The translations under genes were made by a program, and so were the position numbers. Of a stretch of DNA of 64,000 bases, positions 16,941-33,436 are shown piece by piece. The DNA lies in assembly GCA_014529675.2 (NCBI GenBank), contig CP076040.1:434001-498000 (forward strand), read 5' to 3'. Numbering within the stretch: position 1 is the first letter of the stretch; every line of letters begins with the position of its first letter. The notes under the pieces were generated by a model. The model was not told the DNA's origin. It did not search any database and saw nothing but the letters and a program-made list of their open reading frames with translations. The stretch comes from Opitutia bacterium ISCC 52 (GTDB lineage: Bacteria; Verrucomicrobiota; Verrucomicrobiia; Opitutales; UBA2995).

Positions 16941-18260
16941 GTGAAATTGCTCGATCAACTCTTTAACATTAGTTCTCAAGGTAGCACTGTTCGCAAAGAA
17001 CTCCTCGCTGGAATCGCTACCTTTGCGGCTATGTCTTACATCCTTGTGGTGAATCCTTCGATGCTGGCAAAAACGGGAATGCCGCAAGAAGCGCTTATCA
17101 CGGTAACAGCGGTTGCAGCCGCATTTGGCTGTTTTCTGATGGCCTGGATGACCAACTACCCCATAGCCCTTGCGCCTGGGATGGGGACAAACGCTTATTT
17201 TACCTTTGTCATCTGTATCGGTATGAAAGTCCCCTGGCAGGCGGCGTTGGCTATGACTTTCTGGAATGGAGTTATATTCTTGATCCTCTCTGTTACCGGG
17301 TTGCGAAAGAAAATAGCCGAATCGTTGCCCAATGGGATGAAAGTGGGGATTCAGGTAGGGATTGGATTCTTCATTGCCTTTATCGGACTCAAGAATGTGG
17401 GCATTGTGGTGAATAATGACGCCACTTTGGTCGCAGTAGGTAGTTTAAAGTCGCCCGCATCAATCCTGGTTGTTGTAGGGGTTATTTTGATGACGGTGCT
17501 TTCGATAAAGAAAATCCCTGGTGCAATCCTGTTTTCAATTTTAGGTATTACATTTCTTGGTTTTTTCCTCAGCAGCGGTGGCTCGCCCATAACGCCGACA
17601 CCCTCCGGCGTGGTCTCCGCTCCCGCGGGCATTGGAGAGACATTCTTGCAGCTCAACTTCTGGTATCCTTTTCAATTCTGGAAAGAGGCCTTACCGGTCA
17701 TTCTGACCCTGCTCATCCTGGATCTATTTGATAGTATTGGTACGCTCGTGGGATTGTCGCGCAGGGCAAAGTTGGTTGATGAAAACGGAAATATGCCTAA
17801 TATGGGGAAAGCGCTCACAGCCGATTCGATTGCGACTATGGGCGGCGCGTTACTTGGCACATCCACCACTACGTCCTATGTAGAATCTGCAGTGGGCATC
17901 GAGTCGGGTGGAAAAACAGGGCTGACATCGGTCGCTTGTGGAATCTGTTTTCTTTTGGCGCTAATATTCACTCCGATACTAACCATTGTCCCTGCAGTAG
18001 CGACCGCGCCCGCTCTGGTCATGGTTGGTGTGTTTATGGCTCAAGGGCTCAAGGAATTGAACTTTGACGATCTGTCCGAAGTGGCGCCGGCATTTATCAC
18101 CATGCTGATGATTCCTCTCACCTTTAGTATTACGGAAGGAATCGGAATCGGACTGGTAGTATTTGTTTTTGTCATGATATTACTCAACCGTATGAAAGAG
18201 GTGCCGATATTCAGCTATCTGGTAGCGGCCTTGTTCCTGGTGTATTACGGATTGAAGTAA
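16941..18260 (+). CDS. Purine (hypoxanthine/guanine/adenine) permease, AzgA/NCS2-like
   Basis: A proton-coupled nucleobase importer with about 12-14 hydrophobic segments. Family hallmarks include AGIATFAAMSYILVVNPSML near the start, ALAPGMGTNAYF, and the TTSYVESAVGIESGGKTGL loop with the Glu characteristic of AzgA-type proteins. I choose GTG at 16941 because the family begins with a short stretch before the FxxxxxGST-like region (here LFNISSQGSTVRKE). The open frame reaches back to 16872, but that overlaps the NUP start. The stop TAA overlaps the ATG of the adenosine deaminase gene, showing tight coupling. Confidence 0.9.
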   Translation: MKLLDQLFNISSQGSTVRKELLAGIATFAAMSYILVVNPSMLAKTGMPQEALITVTAVAAAFGCFLMAWMTNYPIALAPGMGTNAYFTFVICIGMKVPWQAALAMTFWNGVIFLILSVTGLRKKIAESLPNGMKVGIQVGIGFFIAFIGLKNVGIVVNNDATLVAVGSLKSPASILVVVGVILMTVLSIKKIPGAILFSILGITFLGFFLSSGGSPITPTPSGVVSAPAGIGETFLQLNFWYPFQFWKEALPVILTLLILDLFDSIGTLVGLSRRAKLVDENGNMPNMGKALTADSIATMGGALLGTSTTTSYVESAVGIESGGKTGLTSVACGICFLLALIFTPILTIVPAVATAPALVMVGVFMAQGLKELNFDDLSEVAPAFITMLMIPLTFSITEGIGIGLVVFVFVMILLNRMKEVPIFSYLVAALFLVYYGLK

Positions 18261-19894
18261 TGAAAATTTGGATACTTATACGAATGATATTAGAAAAATT
18301 GAAACAAAGGATTTTCGGGGAAAATAAGAAAGTATCCGGAAACAAGGATCAGATATCTTCCAGTCGCCGGCGATTCCTCGGGCATGGCTTTCTTGCCGCA
18401 TTAGGGGGTAGTTTATTCGCAGGGTCTCGTGGAGCGACTGCACAGGAGACGTCCCAATCACCATCCTCAGGAATGGCAATTGAAGGTAGGCGTAGAAACG
18501 TTTCTGCCAGATTACAGTACTCAGATGGGATCGAGGCTGCCTGGAAAAAGGTGAAAGAGGAAGCATCAGCCGAGGATCTTTACCGAGTGCTCTATGCATT
18601 GCCCAAAGGCGGAGATATTCATCATCACCTGGGTGGTGGTATGTTGCCGGAAATGATTTGGGATATTGCCACTGACTCCAAGCGAAATGGTGGGCAGACG
18701 TTTTATACGCGCGTGCGCATATCGACTTTGAATCTCGCTGAAGTGGGGCACCATACAGACTCAAGGAGCATAGCTGGGTGGGTAACCATCGCAGGGCATT
18801 CCTATGAAAAGCTGACGGCTTCTCTGCAAAATGACTTTAAGCCTTTGGCAGATCTTAATGACAAAGAAAAGCGAGCTTGGATGAATGCCATGTTCCTTGA
18901 TCACGAAGGAGAAGGTCGTGATGAATTCTTTGAATACATCTGGAATCGCCTGGGTGATGTCTTGGTCTCGATTGAGGTGATGATGGAACTGACCGTGGAG
19001 AACATGAAACGGTTTGGTGCTGAAGGTGTGCGTTACTTGGAGATTCAATCACGCTTTCGCGGTTGGTATGATGCCCAGGGGAATGTAATCTCCATGGATG
19101 AGGCTACGAAGATGTGGCTGGACCGTTTTGATCAGCCCGATGCAAAGGCGACGGGTGTCCTCGTGCGCTTTCAAACGATTGTGTTGCGCTTTTCTCCAGA
19201 TGCGATTCAGGGAGTTGAGGAGTATTTCGAATACACCTACAATCATCCTGAGCTGTGGCTCGGAATTAATATGGCCGGTCGAGAGGATGATAACCGTGGC
19301 TACCCCAGTAAGTTCACGGATGTATTTGATCGCATGATTAGGAAATTCCCCGGTGTGGGTATCTCTATTCATGCCGGTGAAGCTGAGAAAAAAGATACGC
19401 ACATATTTGATACCCTTCGCCTGGGAGCGACTCGTATTGGTCACGGTATCAATCTGTTTCGAGATCCTCCGACCATGCAGATGATGCGAGGTGAAAATTT
19501 CCTTATCGAAATCAATCTAATCAGTAATCACCTGCTCGGGTATACTCCTGATTTGGATCAGCATCCATTTCCAATCTACATGCGGCAGGGAATTCCTTGC
19601 TGTTTGAATACGGACGATCGTGGCATGTGGCATTCTAATATGACGGATGAGTATTTTGTCGCAGTTAGTCGTTTCAATCTGACCTGGAAGGAGATGATTG
19701 CTCTTGGAGAAAACAGTCTGAAGCACTCATTCCTGGATGATCAAACAAAGGCGAGGCTTCTGTCGGAATATTACGCTGATGTCATGGTATTCCAAAACAA
19801 ACTCGAGAATGATGGCTGGAAGTCGGTCGCTCGATCGAGCCAAGCCGTCACGTATGACTACGGAAAAACTTACCTGAATCTCAATCTTAGCTAA
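18260..19894 (+). CDS. Tat-exported adenosine deaminase-family enzyme
   Basis: Predicted to deaminate adenosine to inosine outside the cytosol. A Tat signal with [12 protein letters not shown] at residues 33-44 and a hydrophobic stretch ending in ATAQ is present. The metal/substrate motifs are [26 protein letters not shown] and LNTDDRG, in the order of the ADA superfamily. At 544 residues it is longer than cytosolic ADA (about 340) and resembles secreted ADGF-type enzymes. The ATG overlaps the permease stop. A shorter start nearer the Tat motif is possible but does not change the call. Adenine deaminase follows after 5 bp. Confidence 0.9.
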
Positions 19895-30231: not shown

Positions 30232-30297
30232 GTCGTATATGTATTTTAGTGTTGAAAGCGTTTCTCGGAGAACCTCCAAGTCCGTGAGAAAGGGCGC

Positions 30298-30326
30298 AAT
30301 TGAACCAATGGAAGTTTTTCTGTCAA
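30298..30326 (-). promoter_or_regulatory. Possible sigma-70-type promoter of ppdK
   Basis: On the minus strand a perfect TTGACA (30326-30321) is followed after 17 bp by TCAATT (30303-30298), a weak -10 hexamer. It would start transcripts about 60 bp before the ppdK ATG. The -35 match and spacing are good; the -10 match is poor. Confidence 0.4.
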
Positions 30327-30417
30327 CGGTTAAGGAAGCATGGTGAGAGTAATGTATGTGCCTAGCAACTCGGGGGTTGCCGTTTTCATTTCAAACTGTT
30401 TTCTGGTTCGTTTTTAA

Positions 30418-31842
30418 ATGGAAGACGACGGAAAAAAGAGTCCCGATGAGGACGAAGACTTGACCCCGGATGAAGGCCCTGAGGAGCCTTCGAAAAAGGG
30501 TGATGATTCATCGCATTCAGAGCAGGAGGAGTTTTCCTTAGAAGGTGAGCTTGTTCCGCCAGATGACGCGGATGCTTCTGAGGAAGATGAGACTATGGAG
30601 CCTGAGGATTCTGATCTTGAGAAGGATTTGGATAACGAATCTGTTGAGTCTGACGCGGATGACGAATCGTCGTCCAAGCCTGAAAATACAGAGGATATCG
30701 GCGAGGAAGATAGCCTCGAGCCTAAGAATGAAGGTGAGAATGATGCTGAATCCGGGGAAGAGCCAAAGTTGGGCTCTGAGGAGGAAAGTGACGCGTCAGA
30801 TGGGACTGACTCTGAACAGGATCAAAATGAATCTTCGGACGAGGATACTGTTTCCGGGGACGAAGGTTCAGATTATCACCACGAGGGAGATGATGGTTAT
30901 AGTCATTGGGACGACGATCATGATTACCATGGCGATGGCTACCATGATGAGGACTCTCATGGTGAGGAAGAGACCGCGCTTGCCAGCCAGGTAGAAAAAA
31001 GTGTGACTGAACTTGAGCGTCACCCTGATGAAGACATCGCAGCATTAGATGATGCCATCGAAGGTGGCCACATGACTTTTCTTGAGCACCTTGAGGAGCT
31101 CCGAGTCGTACTATTTAAATCTGCGGCAGCGTTCTTATCGGCCTTCATTCTTGTAGCGATATTTTTCCAACAGATTACGGGTTTGCTTAGAACACCGGTC
31201 GAAAAGGCTATGGCCAACCATGGTGTTACGGAAGCGCTGGTGACTACTTCACCGTTTGGGGTTTTCTCATTTTTGCTTCAATTAGGATTCTTAGGCGGGA
31301 TTGCTCTGGCGTCTCCTTTTATTCTGTATTTTGCCTCTTCCTTTATTGCGCCCGGTCTAAATCAAAAAGAACGGCGAACGCTATTACCTGGAGCTTTCGT
31401 TGCGTTGATGCTTTTCAGTGTCGGTTGCATATTTAGCTATATGGTGCTGGTGCCCTCGGCTCTGAATGTATCGATCTATCTGAACGAGCTTCTCGGTTTC
31501 AGCCTTGTTTGGGCTGCGGACCGCTACATGAGCCTGTTAATCTGGATGGTGCTTGGAATTGGGCTCAGTTTTGAGTTCCCCCTCGTTATTACCATCCTGG
31601 TCTATGTCGGCATCCTGTCCGTCGCTATGCTTAGGCAGTTTAGGCGGTATGCCATTGTAATCATCTTTATTCTGGCCGCGTTCATCACGCCCACGGCAGA
31701 TCCGATTACGCAAGGTTTGATGGCAGGTCCTATGATTCTTCTCTATGAGGCAGCCATCATTGTAGGCGCCTTTATTGAGCGACGTAAGAAGCGTGCCTAT
31801 GAGGCTGAGTTCGGATCCTGGGATGAAGATAACCAAGACTAA
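30418..31842 (+). CDS. tatC: TatC translocase with a long acidic, His-rich N-terminal extension
   Basis: TatC recognises twin-arginine signal peptides. The canonical protein starts at Met219 (31072) with MTFLEHLEELRVVLFKSAAA, and six hydrophobic segments follow over 257 residues, the normal TatC size. Residues 1-218 are an extra domain, overwhelmingly Asp, Glu and Ser, with seven His in residues 154-181 (HH, H163, H168, H171, H176, H181). It has no membrane segment or signal, so it should hang in the cytosol. GAAGGTGG ends about 5 bp before Met219, so internal initiation could also yield a normal TatC. No tatA/tatB is adjacent. A Tat-exported adenosine deaminase lies in the same window. Confidence 0.9.
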   Translation: MEDDGKKSPDEDEDLTPDEGPEEPSKKGDDSSHSEQEEFSLEGELVPPDDADASEEDETMEPEDSDLEKDLDNESVESDADDESSSKPENTEDIGEEDSLEPKNEGENDAESGEEPKLGSEEESDASDGTDSEQDQNESSDEDTVSGDEGSDYHHEGDDGYSHWDDDHDYHGDGYHDEDSHGEEETALASQVEKSVTELERHPDEDIAALDDAIEGGHMTFLEHLEELRVVLFKSAAAFLSAFILVAIFFQQITGLLRTPVEKAMANHGVTEALVTTSPFGVFSFLLQLGFLGGIALASPFILYFASSFIAPGLNQKERRTLLPGAFVALMLFSVGCIFSYMVLVPSALNVSIYLNELLGFSLVWAADRYMSLLIWMVLGIGLSFEFPLVITILVYVGILSVAMLRQFRRYAIVIIFILAAFITPTADPITQGLMAGPMILLYEAAIIVGAFIERRKKRAYEAEFGSWDEDNQD

Positions 31843-32284: not shown

Positions 32285-33436
32285 TTACTTCTTCTTACGA
32301 GCTCTTTTCTTGGCAGCTTTCTTGGCAGCTTTTTTAGGAGCAGCCTTTTTCTTTGCAGCCTTCTTAGCAGCTTTCTTCTTTGGTTTAGCAGCAGCTTTCT
32401 TTTTAGGAGCGGCTTTTTTCTTAGCAGCTTTCTTGGCAGCCTTTTTAGGAGCAGCTTTCTTTTTAGCGGCAGCCTTTTTCTTTGGCTTAGCAGCAGCTTT
32501 CTTTTTAGGAGCGGCTCTTTTCTTAGCAGCTTTCTTAGCAGCTTTCTTAGCAGCTTTCTTGGCAGCCTTTTTAGGAGCAGCTTTCTTTTTAGCGGCAGCC
32601 TTTTTCTTTGGCTTAGCAGCAGCTTTCTTTTTAGGAGCGGCTCTTTTCTTAGCAGCTTTCTTGGCAGCCTTTTTAGGAGCAGCTTTCTTTTTAGCGGCAG
32701 CCTTTTTCTTTGGCTTAGCAGCAGCTTTCTTTTTAGGAGCGGCTCTTTTCTTAGCAGCTTTCTTGGCAGCCTTTTTAGGAGCAGCTTTCTTTTTAGCGGC
32801 AGCCTTTTTCTTTGGCTTAGCAGCAGCTTTCTTTTTAGGAGCGGCTCTTTTCTTAGCAGCTTTCTTGGCAGCCTTTTTAGGAGCAGCTTTCTTTTTAGCG
32901 GCAGCCTTTTTCTTTGGCTTAGCAGCAGCTTTCTTTTTAGGAGCGGCTCTTTTCTTAGCAGCTTTCTTGGCAGCCTTTTTAGGAGCAGCTTTCTTTTTAG
33001 CGGCAGCCTTTTTCTTTGGCTTAGCAGCAGCTTTCTTTTTAGGAGCGGCTCTTTTCTTAGCAGCTTTCTTGGCAGCCTTTTTAGGAGCAGCTTTCTTTTT
33101 AGCGGCAGCCTTTTTCTTTGGCTTAGCAGCAGCTTTCTTTTTAGGAGCGGCTCTTTTCTTAGCAGCTTTCTTGGCAGCCTTTTTAGGAGCAGCCTTCTTT
33201 TTAGCGGCAGCCTTTTTCTTTGGCTTAGCAGCAGCTTTCTTTTTAGGAGCGGCCTTTTTCTTAGCAGCTTTCTTAGCAGCCTTCTTTACAGCCTTTTTCT
33301 TGGCTTTTTTAGCAGGTGCTTTTCTTGCAGCTTTTTTGGCAGCTGGTTTTTTGGCAGGTTTTTTGGCAGCCTTTTTGGCGGCCTTCTTAACTACCTTCTT
33401 CTTGGTTGCTTTTTTAGCAGCTTTTTTTGGAGGCAT
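32285..33436 (-). CDS. Histone H1-like Lys/Ala/Pro-rich DNA-binding protein
   Basis: A 383-residue protein made almost only of Lys, Ala and Pro with some Arg. It resembles the disordered C-terminal tail of eukaryotic histone H1 and the chlamydial Hc1/Hc2 proteins, so it is predicted to bind DNA without sequence preference and compact the nucleoid. Seven copies of a 34-residue unit beginning KKRAAPKKKAAAKPKKKAAA are visible, one of them with an 8-residue insertion. No globular domain is present. The mirror + frame is an Ala/Phe/Leu-rich shadow. The start is MPPKK at 33436. The role is inferred from composition only. Confidence 0.9.
   Translation of the reverse strand: MPPKKAAKKATKKKVVKKAAKKAAKKPAKKPAAKKAARKAPAKKAKKKAVKKAAKKAAKKKAAPKKKAAAKPKKKAAAKKKAAPKKAAKKAAKKRAAPKKKAAAKPKKKAAAKKKAAPKKAAKKAAKKRAAPKKKAAAKPKKKAAAKKKAAPKKAAKKAAKKRAAPKKKAAAKPKKKAAAKKKAAPKKAAKKAAKKRAAPKKKAAAKPKKKAAAKKKAAPKKAAKKAAKKRAAPKKKAAAKPKKKAAAKKKAAPKKAAKKAAKKRAAPKKKAAAKPKKKAAAKKKAAPKKAAKKAAKKAAKKAAKKRAAPKKKAAAKPKKKAAAKKKAAPKKAAKKAAKKKAAPKKKAAAKPKKKAAKKAAKKKAAPKKAAKKAAKKRARKKK
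32512..33256. repeat. 102-bp in-frame tandem repeat in the histone-like gene
   Basis: The repeat unit is 102 bp (34 codons), seen as regular returns of GGAGCGGCTCTTTTCTT at about 32514, 32639, 32741, 32843, 32945, 33047 and 33149. The first interval is 24 bp longer (an 8-codon insertion). Units are nearly identical at the DNA level including third positions, so they spread recently by slippage or recombination rather than by ancient duplication. Confidence 0.92.

Follow-up and report, generated by a model that had tools for sequence, protein, structure and literature searches.

The question raised by the tatC gene of the 64,000-nucleotide stretch of DNA analysed here (the window) is why the receptor of the twin-arginine (Tat) translocase should carry a long acidic extension ahead of its conserved domain, how such an extension arose and whether it is maintained by selection. 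The features on which the answer depends are the following.

30365-30380, plus strand: short inverted repeat (GCAAC/GTTGC) within the conserved tatC leader, 5' of the start codon
30418-31842, plus strand: tatC, 474 codons plus stop (Pfam PF00902, TIGR00945)
30418-30429, plus strand: ancestral start, residues 1-4 (MEDD), common to the short TatCs of the genus
30430-30864, plus strand: acidic linker, residues 5-149, the bulk of the insertion
30865-30978, plus strand: His/Tyr/Asp block, residues 150-187
30979-31071, plus strand: linker, residues 188-218, the end of the insertion and the remainder of the ancestral leader
31060-31067, plus strand: GAAGGTGG ahead of Met219, putative internal ribosome site, judged weak
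31072-31839, plus strand: TatC core, residues 219-474, with profile and structure matches

The protein is an otherwise normal TatC with an unusual extension. Its open frame begins at an ATG immediately preceded by a TAA stop, and the TatC match in the Pfam and NCBIfam profile search covers about residues 222-443 (PF00902, at residues 223-438, 180 bits against a cut-off of 25.1; TIGR00945, 154.2 bits against 132.7). The N-terminal extension of 218 residues announced by the original prediction is real. Five residues (H224, L225, L228, R229 and E318) are invariant across 12 aligned TatCs; the HLxELR motif and the Glu of the first cytoplasmic loop are presumably the signal-binding residues of TatC. 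The gene encodes the sole TatC of a 4.8 Mb genome, a search for a second genomic copy yielding none at E<=10, while the single match to the TatA/B family in this genome is located away from tatC. Residues 1-218, taken alone, match no Pfam or NCBIfam family at E<=1.

In an AlphaFold2 model built on 12 sequences the TatC core (pLDDT mostly 62-86) shows the TatC fold, with a TM-score by target length of 0.78 to 4b4a in Foldseek; all seven Foldseek matches at E<=0.001, and likewise all seven sequence matches to structures at E<=1e-5, are TatC. The residues before 187 are helix-free in the model, with 10-residue pLDDT means of 35-56 throughout the acidic linker and the block, and two short predicted helices (187-197 and 206-215), overlapping the second linker, precede the core; for two tail segments no relatives were found in the PDB at E<=10. 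As modelled, the tail would be a long, disordered and strongly acidic arm. Its composition (43 D, 47 E, 27 S, 10 H, 4 Y, 9 K and 1 R over residues 1-218; net charge -80, counted as D/E minus K/R) bears out the description of the extension as mostly Asp, Glu and Ser, and the reported cluster of seven His in 28 residues is found at residues 154-181 (30877-30960), within a block which sits about 34-71 residues N-terminal of the TatC motif.

The origin of the extension can be followed within the genus. A family search covered eight genomes, seven of which had a TatC. Within the genus the long form is also present in the genome G007 (at least 469 residues, running to the contig edge), which has the insertion in common with the window genome, whereas the TatCs of G003-G006 are 284-285 residues long, reading for example MEEDEKIVRHEDEDVALLEETVQEGHMTFLEHL in G003. 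These short TatCs already possess a 26-residue acidic leader ahead of the Met equivalent to Met219, and the start codon and a similar leader are kept in all six genus members. Since the short TatCs share the upstream start and leader, the long form has arisen by the in-frame insertion, behind MEDD, of some 189 residues, and since both are conserved in the six members, the upstream ATG is the lineage's own start. What is new is therefore confined to these inserted residues, which lie inside an ancestral leader, and does not comprise all 218. The leader of the gene (30280-30417), too, is strongly conserved in the genus.

The same comparison bears on the proposal that two products are made, the long TatC and a form of normal length started from Met219. 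Indeed, Met219 (ATG at 31072) lies at the usual TatC start position, is kept in all six genus members and is preceded, as had been noted, by GAAGGTGG; against this, the species with a short TatC begin at the same upstream ATG as the long form, sites resembling a Shine-Dalgarno (SD) sequence stand ahead of only 4 of the 47 first ATGs of long window ORFs, compared with 13% for randomly chosen places, and the five relatives have not retained GAAGGTGG, although G003 and G004 have other purine-rich stretches there. The internal start was therefore set aside, and two TatC forms now appear very improbable. As a separate observation, ribosome-binding motifs seem to be little used in the window, and the first ATGs of the 47 long ORFs may not be the true starts.

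Selection on the tail was estimated from a single pair, the window genome (G000) versus G007. The dN/dS ratio is 0.48 for residues 1-149, 0.022 for the block at residues 150-187 (35 of 38 residues identical), 0.09 for residues 188-218 and 0.028 for the TatC core, the value for the block being a rough one (38 codons, one pair, a high dS of 1.46). Block and linker differ (Fisher p 0.0011) and block and core do not (p 0.38); in this single pair the His/Tyr/Asp block is constrained like the TatC core, the linker is loosely constrained, and the His cluster is kept by selection. Two other ORFs overlap the block, one of 107 aa on the minus and one of 149 aa on the plus strand, but the idea that such a frame accounts for its conservation was rejected, the block having 12 synonymous changes in its 38 codons.

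Beyond the genus, one TatC per genus was sampled across the class (172 genera; a TatC match was obtained in 165, of which 163 remained once G069, truncated at a contig end, and G242, in fragments, had been left out). A tail was counted as a signature tail when some 30-residue window of it contained at least 3 H, at least 2 Y, at least 8 H+Y and at least 5 D+E; N-terminal tails were measured on the open frame and may include a little untranslated sequence. Such tails occur in the TatCs of 16 of the 163 genera, N-terminally in 12 and C-terminally in 4, as against 2 of 306 neighbouring ORFs, unannotated frames included, which served as control (p 2e-6); 11 H+Y as a stricter rule gives 12/163 versus 0/306, and a looser rule (at least 8 H+Y per 30 residues) 18/163 versus 11/306, a weaker contrast. 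In the window itself the signature is confined to tatC, one of 49 long ORFs. The statement that a normal TatC has no such domain holds for the textbook protein, but in this class such tails occur in the 16 genera just mentioned. The tails take forms such as DPYHDEYHDYH (L106), DPYHDEYHHDHDDYHHEHH (L122) and EDPYHDSYHDSYHDSWHDE (L033); their signature windows contain 132 H, 59 Y, 10 N and 11 K/R in 793 residues, His being the most enriched residue after Asp. An acidic tail of any kind is present in 38 of the 163, with His above 4% in 18 and Tyr above 4.5% in 12, and in six of the Tyr-rich ones His does not exceed 3%. In a phylogeny of 177 TatC cores (247 columns, built without the tails), tail presence by the looser rule changes at least 17 times, a minimum on one tree in which individual gains are not proven, and the tailed pair to which the window belongs adjoins a short TatC of its own genus. 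The extension rich in His, Tyr and acidic residues is a conserved and recurrent add-on to TatC.

Two further peculiarities of the TatCs of this class were observed in passing. The C-terminal tails of four genera of family f35 (L169, L195, L242 and L263) have in common the motif WDNxxYNPW; in addition, many TatCs (L012, L010, L106, L122 and others) contain some 60-110 extra residues within the TatC domain, by eye between membrane helices 1 and 2, their Pfam matches spanning 840-1020 bases versus about 640.

The placement of the motif YHDxYH offers another view of the recurrence. An exact DNA search for its codons in 384 genomes returned 52 sites in 38 genomes, no more than its backward control (52 versus about 52 sites genome-wide, tallied from listed rows and totals). 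Eleven of these sites belong to one repeat in G142; among the other 41, nine lie in the TatC tails of eight genomes. The remainder were assigned by eye: five to sulfatases, others to a deaminase, a Ku-like protein, a kinase-like protein whose end is rich in Tyr and an acyltransferase-like protein, and further ones to short or unassigned frames. Because the overall abundance is at the control level and 9 of 41 sites are in TatC, only the placing of the motif in TatC is telling: it lands there far oftener than expected of one gene. The kinase-like protein (L282), of capsule type by eye, has the C-terminal end YYYYHDHYHD, and the repeat of G142 (L118, L290) is dispersed and carries YHDSYHHHPH, 7 of its 10 listed sites being 55 bases or less from a contig start.

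As to the traffic that such a receptor would serve, twin-arginine signals were counted as TIGR01409 matches among up to 103 candidates per genome in 24 tailed and 42 tail-less genomes, picked beforehand from several hundred; six genomes with weaker or His-poor tails (G251, G288, G255, G280, G246 and G020) were placed in neither group. Tailed genomes have 14.3 matches per Mb versus 7.7 in tail-less ones (p 0.0023), and the tailed member is higher in 12 of 13 non-overlapping pairs (p 0.0034), two of the 12 being almost tied and G317 reversed. In raw counts the difference is less marked (p 0.066), the genomes of the tailed group are smaller than the tail-less ones (p 0.006), the pair test lacks significance when confined to well supported branches (median p 0.375), and within the genus of the window no contrast in density is seen. 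The TatA/B family is mostly represented by one match per genome across the 66, and two or more matches are found in 3/24 tailed and 9/42 tail-less genomes (p 0.51, no difference). The window does hold, as originally stated, a candidate Tat substrate, the only one among its long ORFs: 18128-19891 on the plus strand, a protein of the adenosine deaminase family. Another of its products, at 32285-33436 on the minus strand, is a 383-residue Lys/Ala-repeat protein, histone H1-like by eye.

The most likely reading, to which we would assign a rough probability of 0.37, is that the tail serves Tat precursors as a disordered docking arm. Both ends of TatC are cytoplasmic, and the known topology would place the acidic arm on that side of the membrane; here its acidic residues, together with Tyr, Trp and His, might engage the twin-arginine n-regions of the cargo, and possibly the basic part of TatA too, through multiple weak contacts, so that cargo becomes concentrated locally at the face of TatC which binds the signals. 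An arm of this kind could be useful in bacteria whose Tat traffic is heavy and which mostly have one TatA/B-family protein; condensate behaviour, with pH tuning through His, is conceivable as well. The tails, being acidic and nearly free of K/R, are apt for partners bearing Arg. The docking arm is favoured because the block is conserved like the core while the preceding linker is not, because tails recur at either end of TatC, because twin-arginine density is higher in tailed genomes, because the six Tyr-rich acidic tails are poor in His and because the plant proteins STT1 and STT2, discussed below, offer a precedent; it is weakened by the stricter twin-arginine tests and by the smaller size of tailed genomes. 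The observation that His is enriched more often than Tyr lowered its probability from 0.40 and raised that of the following alternative slightly.

According to this close rival, which we regard as possible, the His/Asp/Tyr patch would bind Zn, Ni, Cu or Fe at the mouth of the translocase on its cytoplasmic side, whether to store the metal, to gate export or to supply cargo that is loaded with metal. There are well-known metallochaperones rich in histidine; His outnumbers Tyr in the signature windows and is commoner among the acidic tails, the His of the block are retained between two species, and the one Tat candidate of the window belongs to a family which we take to be zinc enzymes. On the other hand, several of the related acidic tails on TatC combine much Tyr with hardly any or no His, and Tyr accompanies His in all 16 signature tails, although the signature itself required two Tyr. 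Less in keeping with the data is low-complexity drift, in which the tail has grown by slippage and is merely tolerated: the fast evolution of the 149 residues before the block and the absence of the insertion from four of six genus members would suit it, but the core-like constraint on the block and the recurrence of tails on TatC already strain it, and we consider it unlikely. Its special form, drift among NAY codons, was set aside, since the codons for D, H, Y and N are one base apart and N is nevertheless so rare in the signature windows. Finally, the tail might act on TatA rather than on cargo, binding its basic helix, controlling its recruitment or replacing TatB. The single TatA/B match in this and most other genomes and the Lys-rich stretch of the L111 TatA are in line with such a role; yet tail-less relatives also manage with one TatA, and multiple TatA/B matches are distributed without difference between the two groups, which renders it improbable.

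The docking-arm reading can be carried further, albeit more doubtfully, to the proposal that the class repeatedly gave TatC a built-in, disordered acidic His/Tyr/Asp arm capturing or condensing twin-arginine precursors, a bacterial counterpart, tethered to the membrane, of the plant STT proteins, tuned through its histidines by pH or metal and favoured under heavy Tat traffic. What is known of how folded Tat cargo reaches the translocase concerns mainly a few dedicated chaperones; an arm on TatC that recurs and is under selection would, if the docking reading is true, be a new part of the Tat receptor, while a metal-binding tail would tie metal status to the export of folded proteins. In the literature searched (titles and abstract openings, subscription papers being largely outside), no description of a TatC tail rich in His, Tyr and acidic residues was found, and the main text of PMC3827258 does not contain the words 'extension' and 'histidine'; the similar tails of scattered relatives suggest an undescribed add-on which helps the receptor to handle cargo or metal.

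Compared to known systems, the window TatC has the same core fold and sequence as the textbook proteins (Aquifex, 4b4a and 4hts; E. coli, 9dzz), which are devoid of the long acidic N-terminal arm, their matches starting at residue 219-221 of the query and residue 2-9 of the chain. The TatCs of Myxococcus (9e03) and Nitratifractor (9e02) are likewise enlarged by added sequence, and the Nitratifractor chain likewise ends in an acidic stretch; however, their extra sequence interrupts the TatC domain, whereas the tail of the window precedes it. HypB, SlyD and Hpn, with their His-rich metallochaperone tails, provide examples of a His-rich acidic stretch on a working protein, unrelated in sequence so far, judging from the two tail segments searched against the PDB. 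The His/Tyr proteins of the squid beak combine both residues in disordered repeats and undergo pH-dependent phase separation, as do peptides of such repeats (PMC6884462); these are animal proteins and the likeness is one of composition only. A precedent in function is that of the plant proteins STT1 and STT2, chloroplast factors whose disordered regions, of which one has an acidic WEEPD motif, bind to the RR of their Tat cargo, condense the cargo and hand it over to the Hcf106-cpTatC receptor (PMC8740050). The analogy lies in the disordered acidic region, the window arm being acidic and of low confidence in the model, with RR binding as a proposal; STT1 and STT2 are soluble ankyrin-repeat proteins, a family absent from the Pfam search of residues 1-218, and not TatC fusions, whereas the arm described here is part of TatC itself.
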